The notes below the pieces were generated by a model. That model was not told the DNA's origin. It saw only the letters and a list, made by a program, of their open reading frames with translations, and made no database searches. Source: Hyphomicrobiales bacterium (GTDB taxonomy: Bacteria; Pseudomonadota; Alphaproteobacteria; Rhizobiales; Rhizobiaceae). Taken from it: a stretch of DNA of 64,000 nt. The stretch lies in NCBI GenBank assembly GCA_900470805.1, contig UCCA01000037.1, positions 74,726-138,725 of the forward strand, in the 5' to 3' direction. Of this stretch, positions 5,327 through 45,658 are shown piece by piece (the stretch's first letter is position 1; each line of letters begins with the position of its first letter). Both the position numbers and the translations under genes were made by a program.

Positions 5327-6667
5327 ATGGCGCGCACCGACAAGATGAAACTTGGCACCTTCGTCTACACCTTCGGCTTCCATCCTGCCTCCTGGCTGCA
5401 TCCCGCAAGCAACGTCAACGGAGCAAACGACTTCAGCCATCTGCTCGACGTCGCGAAACGCTCGGAGGCAGCCAAGCTCGATTTTATGTTCCTGGCGGAT
5501 TCGCCGGCTGCCGCCATCGGCGACCCTGACGCGCTGTCTCGCATCCCGACGAAGATGAACCGCTTCGAACCGCTGTCGCTGCTCTCGGCCCTGTCAGTTA
5601 CCACGGAAAAGCTCGGTCTCGTCGCCACGGTATCGACAAGCTACTACGAGCCCTTCAACGTCGCCCGCCTGTTTGCCTCGATCGATCACCTGAGCGGCGG
5701 TCGAGCCTGCTGGAATGTGGTGACCTCGGATCATGACGAGACCGGCTACAATTTCAATCGAGAAGGGCTCGATCCGCACGCGCTGCGCTACGAGCGCGGC
5801 AACGAATTCGTCGATGTGGTGTTCGGGCTGTGGGACAGTTTCGAGCAGGACGCCCTGCTTCTCGACCGTGAAAGCGGTGTCTATTACGACAAGACCAAGC
5901 ACCACACGCTCAATCACAAGGGCAAGCATTTCCAGGTGCGTGGTCCGCTCAACATCGCACGCTCTCCGCAAGGACGGCCGATCATCGCCCAGGCCGGCGG
6001 GTCGGAGCCGGGGATGGACATGGCGGCGCGTACCGCCGAGATCGTCTTCAGTCTCGCCTCCAATATCGACCGGAACCGCGCCTTCTATCAGAACGTCAAG
6101 GCACGGATGCCTGGCTACGGGCGCGATCCCGACGATCTCAAGATCATGCCGGGCGTCGTGCTGAACGTCGGTGAAACAGAAGCGGAAGCCAAGGCCAAGG
6201 TCGATTACCTGATCGACAAGATGCATCCCGATGTCGGGCGCCTGATGCTGTCGGAGTTCCTTGAGGCCGACCTCACCGGCGTGCCGCTCGACAAGCCGTT
6301 CCCTATGGATCGCCTGCCGGAGACGCCGAAGGGCTCGCGCGCGCTGTTCGACGAACTCGTGGATTTCGTCAAGAGCGGTCGCACCGTCGGCGAACTCGTG
6401 CGCCACTACGCCGAGAAGCACACCGGCAACGGCATCACAGGAACGCCGACCCAGATCGCCGATTTCATGGAAGAGTGGTTCGAGACCCACGCCGCCGACG
6501 GGTTCATCCTGATGTTCCCGACGCTGCCGGCGAGCCTCGACGATTTCGTCCGCCTGGTGCTTCCCGAATTGCGTCGCCGCGGCCTGTTCCGCGACGAATA
6601 CGAAGGCGCGACGCTGCGGGACAATCTCGGCCTGTCGATGCCGACCAATCGTTTCGCCAAGGTATGA
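5327..6667 (+). CDS. LLM-class flavin-dependent monooxygenase (NtaA/SnaA/DszA family)
   Basis: A 446-residue FMN-dependent, two-component-type monooxygenase of the bacterial luciferase superfamily. The N-terminal KLGTFVYTFGFHPASWLHP, LDFMFLADSPAA, the HLSGGRACWNVVTSDHDE block and GRPIIAQAGGSEPGMDMAAR are hallmarks of the NtaA/DszA branch, which oxidises chelators, sulfones and similar compounds using FMNH2 from a separate reductase. Three ATGs lie in a row at 5321-5329; GGGAG at 5316-5320 favours the third. No flavin reductase is nearby. With the adjacent importer and two regulators it may attack an imported N- or S-compound (inference). Confidence 0.9.
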   Translation: MARTDKMKLGTFVYTFGFHPASWLHPASNVNGANDFSHLLDVAKRSEAAKLDFMFLADSPAAAIGDPDALSRIPTKMNRFEPLSLLSALSVTTEKLGLVATVSTSYYEPFNVARLFASIDHLSGGRACWNVVTSDHDETGYNFNREGLDPHALRYERGNEFVDVVFGLWDSFEQDALLLDRESGVYYDKTKHHTLNHKGKHFQVRGPLNIARSPQGRPIIAQAGGSEPGMDMAARTAEIVFSLASNIDRNRAFYQNVKARMPGYGRDPDDLKIMPGVVLNVGETEAEAKAKVDYLIDKMHPDVGRLMLSEFLEADLTGVPLDKPFPMDRLPETPKGSRALFDELVDFVKSGRTVGELVRHYAEKHTGNGITGTPTQIADFMEEWFETHAADGFILMFPTLPASLDDFVRLVLPELRRRGLFRDEYEGATLRDNLGLSMPTNRFAKV

Positions 6668-7390
6668 AACCCTTGCAAACCGGAAGGGCTTCATGATGCG
6701 GACGATGCCTAGCGCCTCGACTTTTGATTAATCCGCAGTGCCGGCGTCAAACGGCGAGCGCGCGAAACATCGAGCTTAAGCTGTTTGATTTTGCGCCACG
6801 TCACGTGATTTTTCATCGCACCATCGCGCTCGAAATTGACCACGGCACGCGGTAAAGTCTCGAGCCAAATGAGATTGGCCATCTCCCTCGCAAGCCTTGG
6901 GTAGGGCGACAATGCCGAGAGCGGAAACCGGCGCCTTCAAAGCGCTTCCCGCGCATTGAGGCGTTGGACATCGGGCTTAGCAACGCGGCTGAAAATCCGT
7001 TCGACGTTTCAGAGCCGGTTTCTGCTTTCTGTCGGCAATTTCCATACACGGTCGGTGTCTCGTGTTCGAGACCCTGTGCTCTGCGATCGGTTGCGTAGTA
7101 CCTGCCTCGGTGACCACACTGAGCAAATACAGGTCCAAGCCGACCAAGGCTCAGCTTATAATTGCTATAATCGCAATTCATTCGCAATTAATATTGCAAT
7201 TCCGAGAGTGACGAATTCGCTTTAGGTTCGATTTCAGCAGCAAGACAGCGAGTGACCGGCAACCCAGCAACGGAACATGTCACTCAAAGTCTTCAGCGAC
7301 GAGTACCTGAAAATGGGGCTCGGACGACCGGTGTTACACAGACAAGACATGCCGCGCCAGTGGCGCAAACAACCGAAGAGGAAAATCACA
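6668..7390. other. Non-coding stretch before the 7.4-12.6 kb cluster
   Basis: About 720 bases without a convincing gene. Minus-strand frames exist at 6709-6912 and 6813-7187, but they lack ribosome sites and recognisable domains. The stretch PYPRLAREMANLIWLETLP in one of them faintly recalls a regulator C-terminus and could be a decayed remnant, but I cannot support it. The right part becomes AT-rich and carries the GCAATT array, listed separately, that probably belongs to the hydrolase promoter. Confidence 0.5.
7160..7201. promoter_or_regulatory. Phased GCAATT motif array
   Basis: GCAATT occurs at 7173-7178, 7184-7189 and 7196-7201, with the reverse complement AATTGC at 7160-7165. The first pair forms a 6-bp inverted repeat around TATAATC. 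The 11-12 base spacing puts the copies on one helix face, as in a cooperative binding region. It lies about 190 bases upstream of the hydrolase gene. GCAATT recurs twice, 23 bases apart, before the DoxX gene. Confidence 0.4.
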
Positions 7391-8080
7391 ATGTCGAAGC
7401 TCGAAGTCCTGACCCCCGCAAACAGCCAGCTCATCTTCATCGACCAGCAGCCGCAGATGGCGTTTGGTGTGCAGTCGATCGATCGGCAAGTTCTGAAGAA
7501 CAACGTGGTCGGCCTTGCCAAGGCGGGCAAGATCTTCAACGTCCCGACGACGATCACCACTGTCGAAACGGAATCCTTCTCCGGCAACACGTTTCCGGAG
7601 TTGCTGTCGGTGTTTCCGGAAAACGACATCCTGGAGCGCACTTCGATGAACTCCTGGGATGACCAGAACGTTCGCGACGCGTTGGCGAAGAATGCCGCCG
7701 ATGGTCGCAAGAAGATCGTGGTTTCCGGTCTTTGGACCGAAGTCTGCAACACCACGTTTTCGCTTTCTGCGCTGCGCGATGTGCCGGACTATGAGATCTA
7801 CATGGTGGCGGATGCCTCGGGCGGCACGTCGAGCGACGCCCACAGATACGCGATGGACCGCATGGTTCAGGCCGGCGTCATCCCGGTCACCTGGCAGCAG
7901 GTCCTGCTGGAGTGGCAGCGCGACTGGGCCCGCAAGGAAACCTACGACGCCGTCACCACGCTCGTGAAGGAACATTCCGGCGCCTACGGCATGGGCATCG
8001 ACTACGCTTATACCATGGTCCACAAGGCGGCAGAACGCGTCAGCCATGGCAAGCGCATCGGCCCGAACCCCGCCAAGTAA
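7391..8080 (+). CDS. Isochorismatase-fold hydrolase (YcaC-like)
   Basis: A 229-residue cysteine hydrolase of the isochorismatase-like superfamily. The candidate triad is visible: Asp18 in LIFIDQQP, Lys107 or Lys108 in GRKKIVVSGLW, and Cys119 in LWTEVCNTT. The frame is open from 7277, but AAGAGGA eight bases before the ATG at 7391 and the family N-terminus (MSKLEVLTP) choose this start. Members are often annotated as hydrolases of unknown substrate. It is the first gene of a plus-strand set with XapX, amidohydrolase, DoxX and MFS genes, suggesting hydrolysis of an amide or ester in that unknown pathway. Confidence 0.9.
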   Translation: MSKLEVLTPANSQLIFIDQQPQMAFGVQSIDRQVLKNNVVGLAKAGKIFNVPTTITTVETESFSGNTFPELLSVFPENDILERTSMNSWDDQNVRDALAKNAADGRKKIVVSGLWTEVCNTTFSLSALRDVPDYEIYMVADASGGTSSDAHRYAMDRMVQAGVIPVTWQQVLLEWQRDWARKETYDAVTTLVKEHSGAYGMGIDYAYTMVHKAAERVSHGKRIGPNPAK

Positions 8081-8155
8081 ACGGCTATCCCTCATCGCTT
8101 CCGTCGGAACAGGTTTCCCTGGCGGAAGCGAGAATTGTTTGCAAAGGAACATCCC

Positions 8156-8440
8156 GTGAAGCTCTACCTCATTTCCATTGGCGCCGGTCTCCTCGTCGGC
8201 ATCGTCTACAGCCTGCTCAATGTCCGCTCTCCCGCGCCACCGGTCGTGGCCCTCGTCGGTCTGGCCGGCATCCTCATCGGCGAGCAGCTTATTCCCTTCG
8301 CCAAGACGCTTGTCGCGAAAGAGCCGGTAGCGGTCTCCTGGCTCAACCAGATCAAGCCGCACATGTTCGGCCACATGCCGAAGGGCTCCCGCAATGACGT
8401 TGTCGTGTCTCGCCAAGCTCAGTCCAAGTCTGATAGCTGA
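8156..8440 (+). CDS. XapX-domain small membrane protein (DUF1427)
   Basis: A 94-residue protein. Residues 1-50 match the XapX domain: KLYLISIGAGLLVGIVYSLL, then NVRSPAPPVVALVGLAGIL, then GEQLIP, which gives two short membrane helices joined by the conserved NVRSPAPP loop. The GTG at 8156 has AAGGA seven bases upstream and begins at the family start; an in-frame ATG at 8135 lacks one. A polar tail of about 45 residues follows the domain. The domain has no known activity. It sits between the hydrolase (75 bases upstream) and the amidohydrolase, an arrangement consistent with one transcript. Confidence 0.85.
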   Translation: MKLYLISIGAGLLVGIVYSLLNVRSPAPPVVALVGLAGILIGEQLIPFAKTLVAKEPVAVSWLNQIKPHMFGHMPKGSRNDVVVSRQAQSKSDS

Positions 8441-8539
8441 CGCGTCAAGAGGAGATTCGCTTGCGCGAGGGATGACGCCCATCAATTTCCAACGCGCCGG
8501 CCAAAATCAATTTCAACAATGAAGCCAGGAGCATAGTCC

Positions 8540-10417
8540 ATGTTCGCCGACCTCATCCTTCACCATGGTTTGTTCACCACGCTGGATCGCAGCAACCCTA
8601 CGGCCAGCGCCGTTGCCATCAAGGATGGCACCTTCCTCGAAGTGGGGACCGATGCCGAGATCATGGCGTTTGCCGGTCCGGAAACTAAGATCATTGACCT
8701 CAAGGGCAAGCGCGTCCTGCCTGGCCTGATCGACAATCACACACACGTCGTGCGCGGCGGATTGAACTTCAACATGGAACTGCGCTGGGACGGCGTGCGC
8801 TCGCTGGCTGACGCCATGGATATGCTCAAGCGCCAGGTGGCGAACACACCCGCCCCGCAATGGGTGCGTGTCGTCGGCGGCTTTACCGAGCACCAGTTCG
8901 TGGAAAAGCGCCTGCCGACGATCGAGGAGATCAATGCGATCGCGCCTGATACGCCCGTATTCCTTCTCCACCTCTACGACCGCGCGCTGCTCAACGGCGC
9001 GGCTCTTCGCGCCGTCGGCTATACCAGGGATACGCCCAATCCTCCGGGCGGCGAGATCACCCGCGATGCCAATGGCAACCCGACCGGCATGCTGCTGGCA
9101 AAACCCAATGCAGGCATTCTCTACTCCACGCTTGCCAAGGGGCCGAAGCTGCCGCTGGAGTATCAGGTCAATTCGACCCGTCATTTCATGCGCGAGCTCA
9201 ACCGTCTCGGTGTGACGGGCGTGATCGATGCCGGCGGTGGGTTCCAGAACTATCCCGACGACTACGCGGTCATCCAGACGCTTTCCGACGAGAACCAGAT
9301 GACGGTTCGGCTCGCATACAACCTGTTCACGCAGAAACCGAAGCAGGAAAAAGAGGATTTCCTGAACTGGACGTCGTCGGTCAAATACAAGCAGGGCAAC
9401 GACTATTTCCGCCACAACGGGGCCGGCGAGATGCTGGTCTTCTCCGCCGCCGATTTCGAGGACTTCCGCCAGCCGCGGCCTGAGATGGCGCCTGAGATGG
9501 AGGGCGAGCTCGAGGAGGTCGTAAGAGTTTTGGCCGAGAACCGCTGGCCATGGCGTCTCCATGCCACCTATGACGAGACGATCTCACGCGCGCTCGACGT
9601 CTTCGAGAAGGTCAACAAGGATATCCCGCTCGAAGGTCTGAACTGGTTCTTCGACCATGCCGAGACGATCTCCGAGCGCTCGATCGACCGGATCGCGGCA
9701 CTCGGCGGCGGCATCGCTACCCAGCACCGTATGGCCTATCAGGGCGAATACTTCGTCGAACGCTACGGTCACGGCGTGGCCGAGGCGACCCCGCCGATCC
9801 GCCGCATGCTGGAAAAGGGCGTCAACGTTTCCGCCGGCACCGACGCCACCCGCGTCGCATCCTACAATCCTTGGGTCTCACTCTTCTGGATGATCACCGG
9901 CAAGACCATTGGTGGCATGCAGCTTTATCCGCGTGCCAATTGCCTGGATCGTGAGACCGCGCTTCGCATGTGGACCGAGAAGGTCACGTGGTTCTCCAAC
10001 GAGGAAGGCAAGAAGGGTCGCATCGAGAAGGGACAGTTCGCCGATCTCGTGGTGCCGGACAAGGACTTCTTCGCCTGCGCCGAGGACGAGATATCGTTCC
10101 TGACGTCCGATCTTACCATGGTCGGTGGCAAGGTCGTCTACGGCGCCGGCGACTTCAAGGCGCTGGACGAGAGTGACGTTCCACCAGCCATGCCCGACTG
10201 GTCGCCGGTGCGCAAGTTCGGCGGCTACGCAGCCTGGGGCGAGCCGGAAGGGGCCGGTGCCCGCTCGCTGCGCCGCACGGCCATCACCTCTTGCGGCTGC
10301 GCGAGCGATTGCGGCGTTCACGGTCACGACCACGCCGGCGCATGGACATCGAAACTGCCGATAGCGGACTTGAAGGGTTTCTTCGGCGCACTCGGCTGCT
10401 CATGCTGGGCGGTGTGA
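8540..10417 (+). CDS. Amidohydrolase (YtcJ-like) with Cys/His-rich C-terminal tail
   Basis: A 625-residue metal-dependent amidohydrolase. The N-terminal strand FADLILHHGLFTTLDRS and the first metal motif DNHTHV (His67, His69) are followed by a TIM-barrel body with HATYDET, WFFDHAE and SAGTDATRV motifs, then a C-terminal beta sandwich segment (KGQFADLVVPDKDFF). AGGAG eight bases before the ATG supports the start. After about residue 582 comes an unusual tail with Cys585, Cys587, Cys591, His594, His596 and His598, and Cys620/Cys622 near the end, which looks like an added metal site. The substrate is unknown. A terminator-like hairpin follows. Confidence 0.88.
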   Translation: MFADLILHHGLFTTLDRSNPTASAVAIKDGTFLEVGTDAEIMAFAGPETKIIDLKGKRVLPGLIDNHTHVVRGGLNFNMELRWDGVRSLADAMDMLKRQVANTPAPQWVRVVGGFTEHQFVEKRLPTIEEINAIAPDTPVFLLHLYDRALLNGAALRAVGYTRDTPNPPGGEITRDANGNPTGMLLAKPNAGILYSTLAKGPKLPLEYQVNSTRHFMRELNRLGVTGVIDAGGGFQNYPDDYAVIQTLSDENQMTVRLAYNLFTQKPKQEKEDFLNWTSSVKYKQGNDYFRHNGAGEMLVFSAADFEDFRQPRPEMAPEMEGELEEVVRVLAENRWPWRLHATYDETISRALDVFEKVNKDIPLEGLNWFFDHAETISERSIDRIAALGGGIATQHRMAYQGEYFVERYGHGVAEATPPIRRMLEKGVNVSAGTDATRVASYNPWVSLFWMITGKTIGGMQLYPRANCLDRETALRMWTEKVTWFSNEEGKKGRIEKGQFADLVVPDKDFFACAEDEISFLTSDLTMVGGKVVYGAGDFKALDESDVPPAMPDWSPVRKFGGYAAWGEPEGAGARSLRRTAITSCGCASDCGVHGHDHAGAWTSKLPIADLKGFFGALGCSCWAV

Positions 10418-41784: not shown

Positions 41785-42834
41785 TCACCGTGAAGCGATG
41801 ACCATCTTGCAGAGGCTAACCAAGCCGGCATCGAATCCGCCAGATCGGACCACATCCTTGCAGCGTGTCCTCGCCTTGGCACGATCGCCTGCCGACATGT
41901 CGTTGATCATCGTCAGGCTCCGAGCCCGTTCGCCGCCTGAAACATTGCCTTCGGACGTTGACGATGTTCCACCACCGCCTGGATCCGAGGGTGCTATCCC
42001 GCCGCCACCGGCCGTAGAGGGGATACCGACGGATAGCTCAAGAAGCGTATTGTCGCCGGCGCCGACATTTGCCATCGCGCTTGCTGACGCCAGACCGGGG
42101 CCCCCGATCGAGGCGTCAACATCACCGTTTACACCGTCCGTGCCACCGATGCTCACGGTAGTGCCTAGATCCAAGGCGCCAGTCTCGCTGCCGCCGCCCA
42201 AGGTCGTGGAGCTGTTGACACCTTCTGCACCGCCGACGGACAGATCCACGTCAAGTCCACCGTTGCCGGTGCTGCCGAGATCGACATTGACACCGCTTCC
42301 GCCGCCCACTGACACGTTGACCAGATCGCCGGCTGTGGGCGGAATGCGTACATCCACGTCCAGAAGTGTGTTGTCCCCGGCGCCGACATTTGCAACTGCG
42401 CTGGCGGTCGCGAAATCCGAGCCGCCGATCGTGGCATTAACATCAGCGTCAATACTGTCCGTGCCACCGACATTGACGGAGGTGCCGAGGCCCAGACCAC
42501 CGGTCGAGCCGCCGCCGCCCACAGTGGTGGAGCTGTTGATCCCTCCCAGGCCGCCGACGGATGCATCGACGCCAAGACCTCCGCTGGATGTGCCTCCGAC
42601 GTTCGCGTTGACGCCACTTGCGCCGCCGACCGACACGTTTGCTAGGTTGGAAGCGCCGCCGACAGTAGCGTTCACGCCGTTCGTACCTCCCACAGAAACG
42701 GTGAGCCCGCCGCTATTGCTGTTGACACCGATGCCGTTGGATCCGCCGATATCAAAGGCGGTTGCGTGCCATGGGATGAGAATGCCGGCAACACCGACAC
42801 CAACCCTAACTGCGGTCCATCTTGAATAGGTCAT
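41785..42834 (-). CDS. Secreted glycine-rich tandem-repeat protein
   Basis: A 349-residue exported protein. A signal peptide ends about PWHATAFD. The middle is low-complexity VGG-x-x-G-V-N repeats (GGASGVNANVGG, GGTNGVNATVGG and so on) organised in two homologous units of about 105 residues, roughly 66-170 and 170-275. Each unit contains INSSTT/VNSSTT, a GGTDxx(D/G) segment and NVGAGDNTLL, then IPPTAG or IPSTAG. The last 50 residues are a different, charged segment with two Cys. GGAGG five bases before the ATG fixes strand and start. The sequence predicts a regular beta-rich surface or matrix protein; function unknown. Confidence 0.8.
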   Translation of the reverse strand: MTYSRWTAVRVGVGVAGILIPWHATAFDIGGSNGIGVNSNSGGLTVSVGGTNGVNATVGGASNLANVSVGGASGVNANVGGTSSGGLGVDASVGGLGGINSSTTVGGGGSTGGLGLGTSVNVGGTDSIDADVNATIGGSDFATASAVANVGAGDNTLLDVDVRIPPTAGDLVNVSVGGGSGVNVDLGSTGNGGLDVDLSVGGAEGVNSSTTLGGGSETGALDLGTTVSIGGTDGVNGDVDASIGGPGLASASAMANVGAGDNTLLELSVGIPSTAGGGGIAPSDPGGGGTSSTSEGNVSGGERARSLTMINDMSAGDRAKARTRCKDVVRSGGFDAGLVSLCKMVIASR

Positions 42835-43192
42835 CTTATCCTCCGTTAGCTCTTTTGAGGGAATTGCATTCCCTTTGTTCAGAAGCGGAAGTGCGCACTT
42901 ACGGTCGTCGGCAGCGATCTAGCGCGATCGGCGGCCGTCCCACCATGTTCGGATAAGCTGTGGATGGGAGCTAGGTTCCTGATCCTTTCGGCAGATCGGG
43001 GCGAATGATTAATGAGTAGCTAATGTAGAATTAAATTATGCAACAAGTTGCTGCTGCGCCGAACTCATTCGCCGGCAATTCGCAGCCAGTGAAATGGTTC
43101 CATGCATTCCTGCTTGGGCTGCCCCATCGAGAAAGCGCTGTAAATAGCTGAAAATTTCGACGAAGCTTACTTTTCGAATGGAGAGATTCTTG
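42835..43192. other. Intergenic stretch between repeat-protein and receiver genes
   Basis: About 360 bases of divergent upstream DNA. A perfect 7-bp inverted repeat, AGGGAAT-TGC-ATTCCCT, at 42858-42874 lies just upstream of the repeat-protein ribosome site. A 37-codon frame at 43038-43151 (MQQVAAAPNS...) has no ribosome site that I can support. The rest holds nothing I recognise. Confidence 0.5.
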
Positions 43193-43572: not shown

Positions 43573-45228
43573 CTAGAGGTGTTTAAATTTCGTCGAGAAC
43601 AGTGCTTTCAACCTTTGAACATCATCCGCACTCCACCCCTGTGGCGCGGTGACAGCAAGCCAGGCATCAATGTAGTGTTGGGGAGCGTAGACGTGGCCAT
43701 AGCCCATGGGCGATGTCGTTGCGATCATTGAATCAAACCCCAATTGCAGCATCGTGATGATGGGGATCCAACGAAAGCTTGGGGATACGTCCGGGCCGCG
43801 GGGCAATACCAACCAATCAGGCTTGCGATAGAACGAGCGCCACTCGAAGAAGGTGACTGGGTCACTCGCGTATTGCAGGAACACAACCCTGATAGGTCCC
43901 CACACCGCTCCAGGTATATTCAAGGCATTCCGCTGATTGGTGAACCGAATGATCGAGCCGTTGCCAAAACGCGGCAACCATGCGGGCGACCCTGCCTGGC
44001 GGTTTTCAGTGACCGATTTCCAGGTCGCGCTTGAGTAAGGCGGTCCGCTCCAAAGCGCACCCTGAAACGGGTCGGCAATGACATCATAGAGATTCGCGGA
44101 TAGCTGCGAATTCAACGCGCCGAGGCTTAAACCGTGCAGGTACAACTGGGGCCTGTGATCACGCGGCAGCGTCGACCAGTAGCCGTATACTTCTTTGAAC
44201 AAGGCGCGCGCGGCGTCCGAGCCATATCCCGGCTCGACCATAAGGGACAGCCAGCTAACGAGATAGGAATACTGAAGCGCAACACTCGCTATGTCACCGC
44301 GATGAAGGTATTCGGCGGTGTCGATGGCGGCGGGATCGATCCAGCCCGTTCCTGTTGGAACGATGACGATCAAAACCGACCGATCGAAGGCTCCCTGCCG
44401 CTTCAACTCGGCGAGCGCGAGTTTGGCGCGCTCCTCGGTCGTTTCCGCAGCGTTCAAGCCGACATAGACGCGGATAGGGTCGCGGGCATTCACATGTAGG
44501 AATTCACCGACATCCTGGCCGGTCGGTCCTGAGGTTATGAAGTGCCGACCTTGGCGCCCAAGCTGCTTCCAGGCGACGACGGATGCAGCGCTGCCAGTCT
44601 TTGCCGGATCGGTTGGCTCGGGCGTGTTATCGTCGATCAGCGCATCAGCCTCTCGAAGCGAACTGTCGGCAACCCGCAGCGCGACCTTGAAGAATATGCC
44701 TTCCGCAACCGACCAAAACAGCATGATCGCCAGCAACGTCCCGATGACGCGGGCAAGCCGCCGCGGAATGAAGCGGCGGAACCACACATAAGAAGAGGTT
44801 GAAAGCCGGCTGAAGAGCAGACCCAGTGCAATGAGCGCGATGAACACCAATAGGGCAACGCCAAGAAGCTTCAGCGGATCGGCCGCAGCAACCGGTTCCA
44901 TGCCCATCAAGCCACGAATGGAGTTCTGCCACGTCGTCTGCTGCCACAGGAACCATGTCGAGACAACAATGCAGGGAGTGAGGACGCACGCTGTCCAAAT
45001 CCGGCCGGGCGGGGAAGGTGGACTTGGCAATTCGAGATAGTCCCATAGCCATACCGCGAAGACGCCGATGAAGTATCCGCATGCTGCGGATGTCCCCGAA
45101 AGCGCCCCCTGAACAAAGGGCGAGCGAGGCATCAGGCTTGGGGTCAGTGAAAACGAGAAGAACAGGGCGGCGACTGCCAGACCCGAGAGCGAAAGATAAG
45201 ACCATTTGCCCACACGCGAAATTTCCAT
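43573..45228 (-). CDS. Abhydrolase_9-family membrane alpha/beta-hydrolase
   Basis: A 551-residue protein. Residues about 1-190 hold four to five membrane helices of the N-terminal domain (SLTPSLMPRSPFVQGALSGT after the first). The C-terminal half is an alpha/beta-hydrolase-like domain with VLIVIVPTGTGWIDPAAIDT and the nucleophile elbow LYLHGLSLGALNS (Ser in GLSLG). GAGTGG precedes the ATG at 45228; earlier in-frame codons are unlikely. The family is widespread and mostly uncharacterised. It converges on the receiver gene and probably stands alone. Confidence 0.88.
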   Translation of the reverse strand: MEISRVGKWSYLSLSGLAVAALFFSFSLTPSLMPRSPFVQGALSGTSAACGYFIGVFAVWLWDYLELPSPPSPPGRIWTACVLTPCIVVSTWFLWQQTTWQNSIRGLMGMEPVAAADPLKLLGVALLVFIALIALGLLFSRLSTSSYVWFRRFIPRRLARVIGTLLAIMLFWSVAEGIFFKVALRVADSSLREADALIDDNTPEPTDPAKTGSAASVVAWKQLGRQGRHFITSGPTGQDVGEFLHVNARDPIRVYVGLNAAETTEERAKLALAELKRQGAFDRSVLIVIVPTGTGWIDPAAIDTAEYLHRGDIASVALQYSYLVSWLSLMVEPGYGSDAARALFKEVYGYWSTLPRDHRPQLYLHGLSLGALNSQLSANLYDVIADPFQGALWSGPPYSSATWKSVTENRQAGSPAWLPRFGNGSIIRFTNQRNALNIPGAVWGPIRVVFLQYASDPVTFFEWRSFYRKPDWLVLPRGPDVSPSFRWIPIITMLQLGFDSMIATTSPMGYGHVYAPQHYIDAWLAVTAPQGWSADDVQRLKALFSTKFKHL

Positions 45229-45658
45229 CAGCAACCACTCCGTGCAGCAAAGACTTTTCGACGGGCTCCCGCCACCGTGACGGTCGTTCACAACTTGGAT
45301 CGAACGTGCGACAGGGTAACTCTGAGCCACCCAGACTAAGCGTTTTGAAAGCCCGACAATCGATAATGCACCTTTAAACAGGCGCGTTCACTGAGCTGAA
45401 TGCAAGTCAGAAGATACGACGAAAAGCGGCGTCTCGACAGATGGTTCGTTCGTTGCGGCGCGACGACACTCAACGCTTGCTTTTTAGCGCTCCGGTGTCA
45501 ATCCGCTTAACACAGGATGGTTAGCTGAAACCGTGCTCGATACCTCATTGACCAACACTGAGGAGGCTACCGCTTTCAATGCCGCTGCAAGCGCGACGGC
45601 CCGAGTACACAGGGGTTCGAAGGCGATTGGGGAGCGATGCCCGTGCGTGGCTTACGAT
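45229..45658. other. Intergenic stretch, no supported gene
   Basis: About 430 bases between two minus-strand genes. A plus-strand frame from 45533 and others have no convincing ribosome site or family. A short direct repeat, TTACGATTTACGATTTA, lies near 45653-45669. Promoter sequence for the hydrolase gene must lie at the left part. Confidence 0.5.

Follow-up and report, generated by a model that had tools for sequence, protein, structure and literature searches.

Curlins (CsgA/CsgB; Curlin_rpt, PF07012) are exported proteins with strand-turn repeats of variable number, the heads of trimeric autotransporters (UspA1, CbpF, YadA-like) consist of Gly-rich beta-roll repeats, and SufB/SufD is a cytosolic Fe-S scaffold. 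At the RNA level, rhizobia have ROSE thermometers, and Rfam contains ROSE models. Excerpts of PMC2275737 describe Gly-rich, repetitive and acidic RTX proteins of rhizobia that are exported by PrsDE. Excerpts of PMC2881028 report 49 putative novel cis-regulatory RNAs from an R. etli tiling array, and those of a 2010 survey (PMC2864571) list Rhizobiales-1, Rhizobiales-2 and flg-Rhizobiales.

The gene analyzed here lies within a 64,000-nucleotide stretch of DNA (the window) and codes for a VGG-repeat protein that shares some properties with each of these systems. It resembles the RTX proteins in its Gly-rich, repetitive, acidic and apparently exported product; however, no GGxGxDxUx nonapeptide occurs in the window protein or in four relatives, and a signal-type N-terminus and a strand-turn unit of ∼10–14 residues set it further apart. 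With the curlins it has in common a signal-type N-terminus and strand-turn repeats of variable number. The SxxxGxGNxAxxxQ motif is nevertheless absent from all five proteins, whereas PF07012 does recognize the true curlins encoded in this genome; moreover, the VGG-repeat gene is without csg linkage and its product carries an extra C-terminal helical module with two cysteines. UspA1 and CbpF, as representatives of the autotransporter heads, were recovered by VIA at Z 6.5, within the range of common arrangements, but neither a membrane anchor nor a stalk was found, Pfam gave no match at E ≤0.1 and the C-terminus is predicted to be helical. The reading that we favor, with a probability of about 0.5, is that of an exported structural protein, probably with a beta-solenoid fold, the translation of which would be gated by a dedicated leader RNA. 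The parts of the gene are given below.

41785..42834, minus strand: VGG-repeat protein gene, an ORF of 349 aa with a GGAGG site and the signature of purifying selection
42757..42834, minus strand: signal-type N-terminus, residues 1–26, cleavage between ATA and FD judged by eye
42322..42642, minus strand: unit 1, residues 65–171, offset 107, 68/107 identical to unit 2
42001..42321, minus strand: unit 2, residues 172–278, offset 107, 68/107 identical to unit 1
41923..42000, minus strand: Gly/Pro/Ser linker, residues 279–304, least conserved against L023, low pLDDT
41788..41922, minus strand: basic helical C-terminal module, residues 305–349, with Cys325 and Cys342, dN/dS 0.09, three predicted helices

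The ORF coordinates are exact, and the ATG is preceded by the GGAGG site. Comparison with the orthologue at locus L023 (70% identical) yielded a dN/dS of ∼0.18 for the gene and of 0.09 for its C-terminus; judged by these substitution rates, the gene is under purifying selection. A plus-strand ORF at 41798–42829 was considered as an additional gene; L023–L025 also contain a long open frame on the antisense strand, and on this comparison we take the ORF to be a by-product of base composition. The original prediction of an exported protein agrees with the signal-type N-terminus, which ends at ATA/FD by eye. A simple hydrophobicity rule detected a hydrophobic, Sec-like N-terminus in 36 of 37 family proteins. 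The lipoprotein test revealed no lipobox cysteine in the N-terminus of the window protein; by eye, many relatives have an N-terminal cysteine ∼11 residues before the apparent cleavage site, and several are without it. We infer export beyond the inner membrane and a location at the cell surface. The description of the protein as low-complexity fits its glycine content (79 of 323 mature residues) but does not extend to residues 305–349, which form an ordinary module with strong conservation. With a pI of 4.05 and a charge of ∼−20, the repeats are acidic; the C-terminus is basic (pI 10.3).

Seven matches to [VIL]GG..[GSN][VIL][ND] in the window protein bear out the proposed V-G-G-x-x-G-V-N repeats. 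Likewise, the protein does contain a duplication of two tandem units, although these are offset by 107 residues and not by the 105 originally assigned: self-comparison at offset 107 gave 76 identical positions out of 156, whereas units at offset 105 share 16–19 of 105. The self-identity of the protein exceeds that of all 1000 residue shuffles and all 1000 shuffles of VGG blocks. Identity between the two units amounts to 68/107 at the residue level and 224/321 at the base level, and the dS between them is ∼1.06, indicating strong synonymous divergence. Because of this divergence, and because unit 1 is nearer to unit 1 of the L023 orthologue (78/107) than to its unit 2 (67/107), the duplication is probably older than the split between the two genes. 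An NTL marker, placed towards the end of each unit, is found two, three or four times in long forms and zero or one time in short forms. Relatives with other unit numbers thus exist (zero to four NTL-marked units), and homologues with conserved repeats are numerous, counter to what would have refuted the original prediction. Of 30 rows, 24 were retained for a family tree, in which a branch with support 89/80, present in 88% of bootstrap trees, has all nine multi-unit forms on the same side. This is compatible with, but does not prove, a single origin of the unit expansion in these sequences.

The linker region (residues 277–304) retains 10 identical columns out of 31 in the comparison with L023. 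Both C-terminal cysteines, on the other side of this linker, are present in 37 of 37 extracted family proteins, and the invariant columns among 15 diverse C-termini are C, L, L and C. A disulfide between Cys325 and Cys342 probably closes the module, which we take to be a retention or docking part. The full window protein had no match among the PDB sequences; two matches of its C-terminus to the orange carotenoid protein (E 0.094 and 0.53) are weak and were taken as chance. Neither the C-terminal two-Cys module nor the leader RNA figured in the original prediction, the latter lying outside the interval described there.

The plan of the family comprises acidic [VIL]GGxxGVN strand repeats in varying number, a Gly/Pro linker and a basic, helical C-terminus of ∼45 residues with two cysteines. 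No known family had been recognized in the protein, and this statement holds, as Pfam, NCBIfam and PHROGs yielded nothing for the window protein at E ≤0.1; when 20 members were compared with profiles, only DUF826 (E 0.004) and a serine-rich NCBIfam model (E 0.006) came up, once each, and both were put down to chance. The own genome contains one paralogue, located on another contig (244 aa from the likely start). Relatives occur in 29 of 60 genus genomes at E ≤1e-3, and 19 relative loci obtained from species genomes belong to Rhizobium, Shinella and Rhizobiales isolates. A profile of the C-terminus matched 93 of 148 genus genomes at E ≤1e-8 and, at E ≤1e-3, 17 of 249 genomes of the order, where the family is sparse in other genera. 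By ORF reading, 16 of these 17 have the same architecture; the remaining one, L057, reads as a protease-like protein and was judged false. Two matches besides the own genome in a search of the class (190 genomes) read as enzymes and also look false. A total of 39 ORFs was taken from 41 loci (L015 and L020 were below threshold), and a Gly-rich repeat region together with a two-Cys C-terminus is present in all 37 proteins kept once L003 and L004, copies of L002 and L023, were set aside. In L055 and L058, which belong to other genera of the order, extra Cys-containing segments such as LxxLCLxVGG were seen by eye before the C-terminal module. No paper on the family or the leader was found among literature titles and abstract starts, a scope that mostly excluded subscription papers and leaves absence unproven. 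With none of the searched sequence libraries and none of these titles and abstract starts containing it, the protein family appears to be new.

Hydrophobic moment analysis revealed a pronounced 180-degree periodicity of the repeats (z 8.0 for the window protein, 5.9 and 5.3 for two relatives; 0 of 500 shuffles each), and the 100-degree moment expected of helices was lower than in shuffles. AlphaFold models of the window protein and a short relative consist of strands in series, followed by a disordered linker and, at the C-terminus, three helices. Both models are weak (mean pLDDT 50.6 and 50.3), and the fold is therefore a guess; ten-residue means of pLDDT for the C-terminal region of the window model range from 63 to 78. 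When the best 39 Foldseek chains for this window model (pLDDT 50.6) were compared by VIA, the beta-helices of SufB/SufD came first (Z 13.3–15.8, rmsd 3.4–3.8, 214–219 aligned residues), and the other beta-helices among the same 39 chains had Z values <8. The likeness to the SufB/SufD parallel beta-helix, being the best neighbor of a weak model, goes with only 8–11% identity; repeats can give such Z values by arrangement alone, and the model is too weak to argue for a shared fold. Foldseek on the model of the short relative yielded no match at E ≤0.001, the best being UreD (E 0.08). The beta-roll that had been proposed for the protein is thus in keeping with the 180-degree alternation (z ∼8) and the modeled strands but not secured by models with a mean pLDDT of ∼50. 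Judged from these models and the periodicity, the repeats probably form a beta-solenoid of some kind. Most likely, the acidic repeats, with strands of ∼7–11 residues and GGxxG turns, would stack into a beta-solenoid or beta-ladder rod that may lengthen by unit duplication, and the flexible Gly/Pro linker would join this rod to the basic helical C-terminal module.

An alignment of the DNA upstream of the window gene and of four long-form relatives revealed conservation at a palindrome located ∼65 nt upstream of the start codon. Exact copies of AAGYGCGCRCTT occur in 10 of 33 upstream stretches, and 17 of the other 23 match 10–14 of 15 consensus bases at the same place (the display of these stretches covered 24 of the 33). 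The palindrome is part of a putative leader RNA with the following elements (SD, Shine-Dalgarno).

42835..42905, minus strand: 5′ leader RNA, 71 nt; the match of model R1 at 42832–42905 includes the start codon
42886..42901, minus strand: P1 palindrome TAAGTGCGCACTTCCG, with a perfect palindrome at 42889–42900
42886..42891, minus strand: anti-Shine-Dalgarno strand CTTCCG, the 3′ half of P1, complementary to the SD
42858..42874, minus strand: P2 hairpin AGGGAAT-GCA-ATTCCCT, covarying and folding better than shuffles
42840..42845, minus strand: Shine-Dalgarno sequence CGGAGG, with predicted pairing to CTTCCG (P3)

One plan, with P1 around a GCGC core, the P2 hairpin and the SD, was recognized in 61 of 64 distinct leaders, which derive from 89 after automatic choice of the start and for which the parsing itself demanded a GCGC core and a GGAG site. 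In most of the 61 parsed leaders, the 3′ half of P1 is complementary to the SD (P3). The leaders of the MR type (L019, L021, L108, L110, L111 and L124–L132) have a variant pairing of CUCCG with CGGAG, and the covariance model R1 scores them at ≤18.4 bits or not at all. Three of the four Shinella leaders L038–L041 (L038, L039 and L041) did not yield to the GCGC plan; CU-rich stretches complementary to the SD region were seen by eye.

In 21 of 23 representatives with <75% identity, the P2 hairpin is predicted to be more stable than its mononucleotide shuffles (z <−1), and the mean z is −2.6; L040 was left out of this set, which also served for the arm-swap tests. Covariation was assessed on an alignment of 23 of 32 leaders, which leans towards structure since nine with extra hairpins or a divergent form were left out. 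For P2 and P3 together, 82.7% of the cells pair and 23 cells have changed on both sides, values that none of 500 shuffles reached; sliding the partner by one to three columns lowered pairing to 32–60%. Of the seven P2 pairs, six have double changes, as compared to one of the six P3 pairs. Two of the five measures are less decisive: the number of pairs with a double change and the number of further pair types were reached by 19 and 42 of 500 shuffles, respectively. In the arm-swap test, the arms of P1 preferred their own partners (1 of 20000 permutations was as good; 847 of 20000 without the core-adjacent bases). For P3, 657 of 20000 permutations were as good, as compared to 16164 and 5403 for two control stretches. 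Taken by itself, P3 has only modest support, and a CU-rich partner will readily turn up for any SD. RNAalifold, run on 16 leaders in an earlier alignment, recovered P3 only, without double changes, and missed P2. When 11 whole leaders were folded one by one, their stability was unremarkable (z −0.15 to −2.50, one of them below −2). The commonest P2 loop, CAUUGGG, occurs 14 times among 61 leaders, near-copies counted, and is a possible recognition site.

Prediction of SD accessibility at 30 °C gave a mean of 0.15 for the 23 leaders and of 0.43 for 15 other window genes. The difference is significant at each of six temperatures (p <0.001), the controls being the 15 of 29 listed genes that have a recognizable site, with starts uncurated. 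Individual leaders depart from the mean: the SD is predicted to be fully open in L087 and ∼0.3–0.5 open in L005 and L006, and several P1 pairs are expected in L005, L014, L027 and L030.

To assess specificity, we used the covariance model R1, built from 23 leaders chosen by the analyst; in the large searches, stricter filters applied and weak matches were lost. In the own genome, R1 found two sites at E ≤1e-3, one before the window gene and one before its paralogue. Of three weaker candidates, the third and fourth matches (E 0.065 and 0.43) were rejected since, on our reading, they run into long frames that look coding; the fifth has an E value of 0.79. Among 148 genus genomes, 78 matches in 61 genomes were obtained at E ≤1e-3, up to 23 of which are the model's own training rows. 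All 78 are on the same strand as, and 355–1219 nt before, a family C-terminal module, so that 78 of the 115 family modules of the genus are preceded by a match and 37 are without one. The leaders of L005–L008, which were outside the training set, scored 38–50 bits. In 297 genomes of the taxonomic family, R1 gave four matches in three genomes, all of the window's genus.

Rfam had no match at E ≤5 for 42800–43050 of the window, and across ten loci a single weak match below the gathering threshold (sRNA P10, E 0.46). Rhizobiales-2 and flg-Rhizobiales have Rfam accessions and, going by the excerpted survey, would have matched had they been the same leader; for Rhizobiales-1 no accession is listed. 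The leader may be among the 49 R. etli RNAs of PMC2881028. With respect to the searched libraries and to Rhizobiales-2 and flg-Rhizobiales, it appears to be new.

The arrangement of the three helices suggests how the leader may act. Pairing of CUUCCG, the 3′ half of the palindrome, with the SD CGGAGG across the hairpin would keep translation low, and pairing of the same strand with the 5′ half of the palindrome would free the SD. P1 and P3 are mutually exclusive because they share one strand. For this reason, and because of the P1 pairs expected in L005, L014, L027 and L030 and the open SD of L087, a two-state translational switch is favored. The trigger could be a ligand, a protein or small RNA acting at the P2 loop, or the kinetics of transcription and ribosome loading. 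A farther-reaching version, in which the leader represents a new class of bistable cis-regulatory RNAs, encountered to date in Rhizobium only, that turns on the surface-repeat family through one cellular or plant signal, is offered tentatively and seems to us somewhat less probable than its negation.

Each half of the preferred reading has to be weighed against rival ones. The repeats might form a curli-like functional amyloid, polymerizing as cross-beta fibers after export through CsgG. The own genome indeed has CsgG, CsgF, CsgH and two curlin-repeat proteins, the FapC and CsgA fibrils appear among the Foldseek rows at non-significant E values (1.4 and 5.6), and across 60 genus genomes CsgG accompanies the long form in six of six genomes as compared to nine of 54 others (Fisher p 1e-4, kinship ignored). 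This association vanishes, however, over all family matches (CsgG in 7 of 29 genomes with a match and 8 of 31 without), six other genomes with strong matches, all short forms, are without CsgG, and the protein has neither the curlin motif nor a Pfam curlin match. Moreover, the window gene (contig C65) lies outside the csg operon (contig C38), which has its own curlins, and we consider a curli-like fiber quite doubtful. Alternatively, the protein could be a periplasmic or cell-wall spacer, that is, a non-polymerizing, low-complexity filler that stays in the periplasm. The presence of a signal-type N-terminus only, the lack of an anchor or autotransporter domain in Pfam, the net charge of the repeats (∼−20) and their low-complexity composition would suit such a filler; we nonetheless hold it to be unlikely, as the strand periodicity and the conserved, selected unit architecture argue for an ordered fold and the unit duplications suggest that length matters.

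With respect to the leader, a pyrimidine-rich strand that is predicted to hide the SD is a property shared with ROSE, other thermometers and translational riboswitches; the leader differs from these SD-sequestering ones in having no Rfam match, no mean melting predicted and matches before one protein family only. A ROSE-type thermometer could draw on the sequestration of the SD by a CU-rich strand and on L107, which alone of the 23 leaders opens with heat (predicted 0.02 at 15 °C, 0.34 at 48 °C); individually, predicted SD opening rises with temperature in L107 and L006. The mean over the 23 leaders, by contrast, is flat from 15 to 48 °C (0.16 to 0.15), and since it does not rise, a simple thermometer is unlikely. 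As Rfam did not match the leader and nothing marks the VGG-repeat protein as a heat-shock protein, we leave the ROSE-type reading little chance. According to another interpretation there is no switch: the palindrome would serve a dimeric regulator as its DNA operator, and the hairpin would act on transcript stability. In favor of an operator, AAGTGCGCACTT is a perfect palindrome, and the genome contains a single perfect site for the 14-base pattern; but the sequence varies among subfamilies with its symmetry largely kept, which is more easily reconciled with RNA pairing than with a fixed operator, and the 3′ half is also complementary to the SD. We judge an operator improbable. A regulon defined by the palindrome was rejected, as the own genome contains 16 sites with ≤1 mismatch, one of them perfect, and 17 for a reversed control; the exact upstream palindrome was found neither in the csg locus (L066) nor in the paralogue locus (L067).

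Coming back to the preferred reading of a translationally gated, exported solenoid protein, the close tie between the leader and a single family suggests that it pays to control the protein level at translation. The varying unit number combined with a fixed two-Cys module provides a natural series for asking whether repeat number sets the length of a rod or fiber. The locus also opens the questions of what exported repeat proteins that are neither RTX nor curli do at the rhizobial surface and of which signal the leader reads.

The window gene is situated between an FAD oxidoreductase gene and a response regulator gene, each on the opposite strand. A nearby EPS locus had been put forward as a hint to a biofilm or surface role; the polysaccharide genes, comprising glycosyltransferase and polysaccharide-export genes at 56–63 kb of the window, are at least 13 kb off, and no conserved linkage to the gene was found, so this hint is not supported. 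A biofilm role is possible. When 15 window genes were compared with 19 relative loci (∼6 kb flanks), the only relatives were a sugar-ABC set in L024 (27–50% identity) and an ABC ATPase in L027 (33% identity). A membrane hydrolase of the Abhydrolase_9 type is encoded at 43573–45330 on the minus strand; no link to the VGG-repeat gene was seen. The curli operon of the own genome (L066, C38:14000-27000) occupies 6001–9235 of that locus and codes for two curlin-repeat proteins, CsgH, CsgF and CsgG according to Pfam. Finally, in 7 of 19 loci (L030, L031 and L033–L037) the short paralogue is preceded, on its own strand, by a chemoreceptor-like gene, at a distance of ∼0.5 kb or less in six of them and of ∼1.8 kb in L037; the copy in L036, the one run against Pfam, has a PAS-PAS-MCP architecture.
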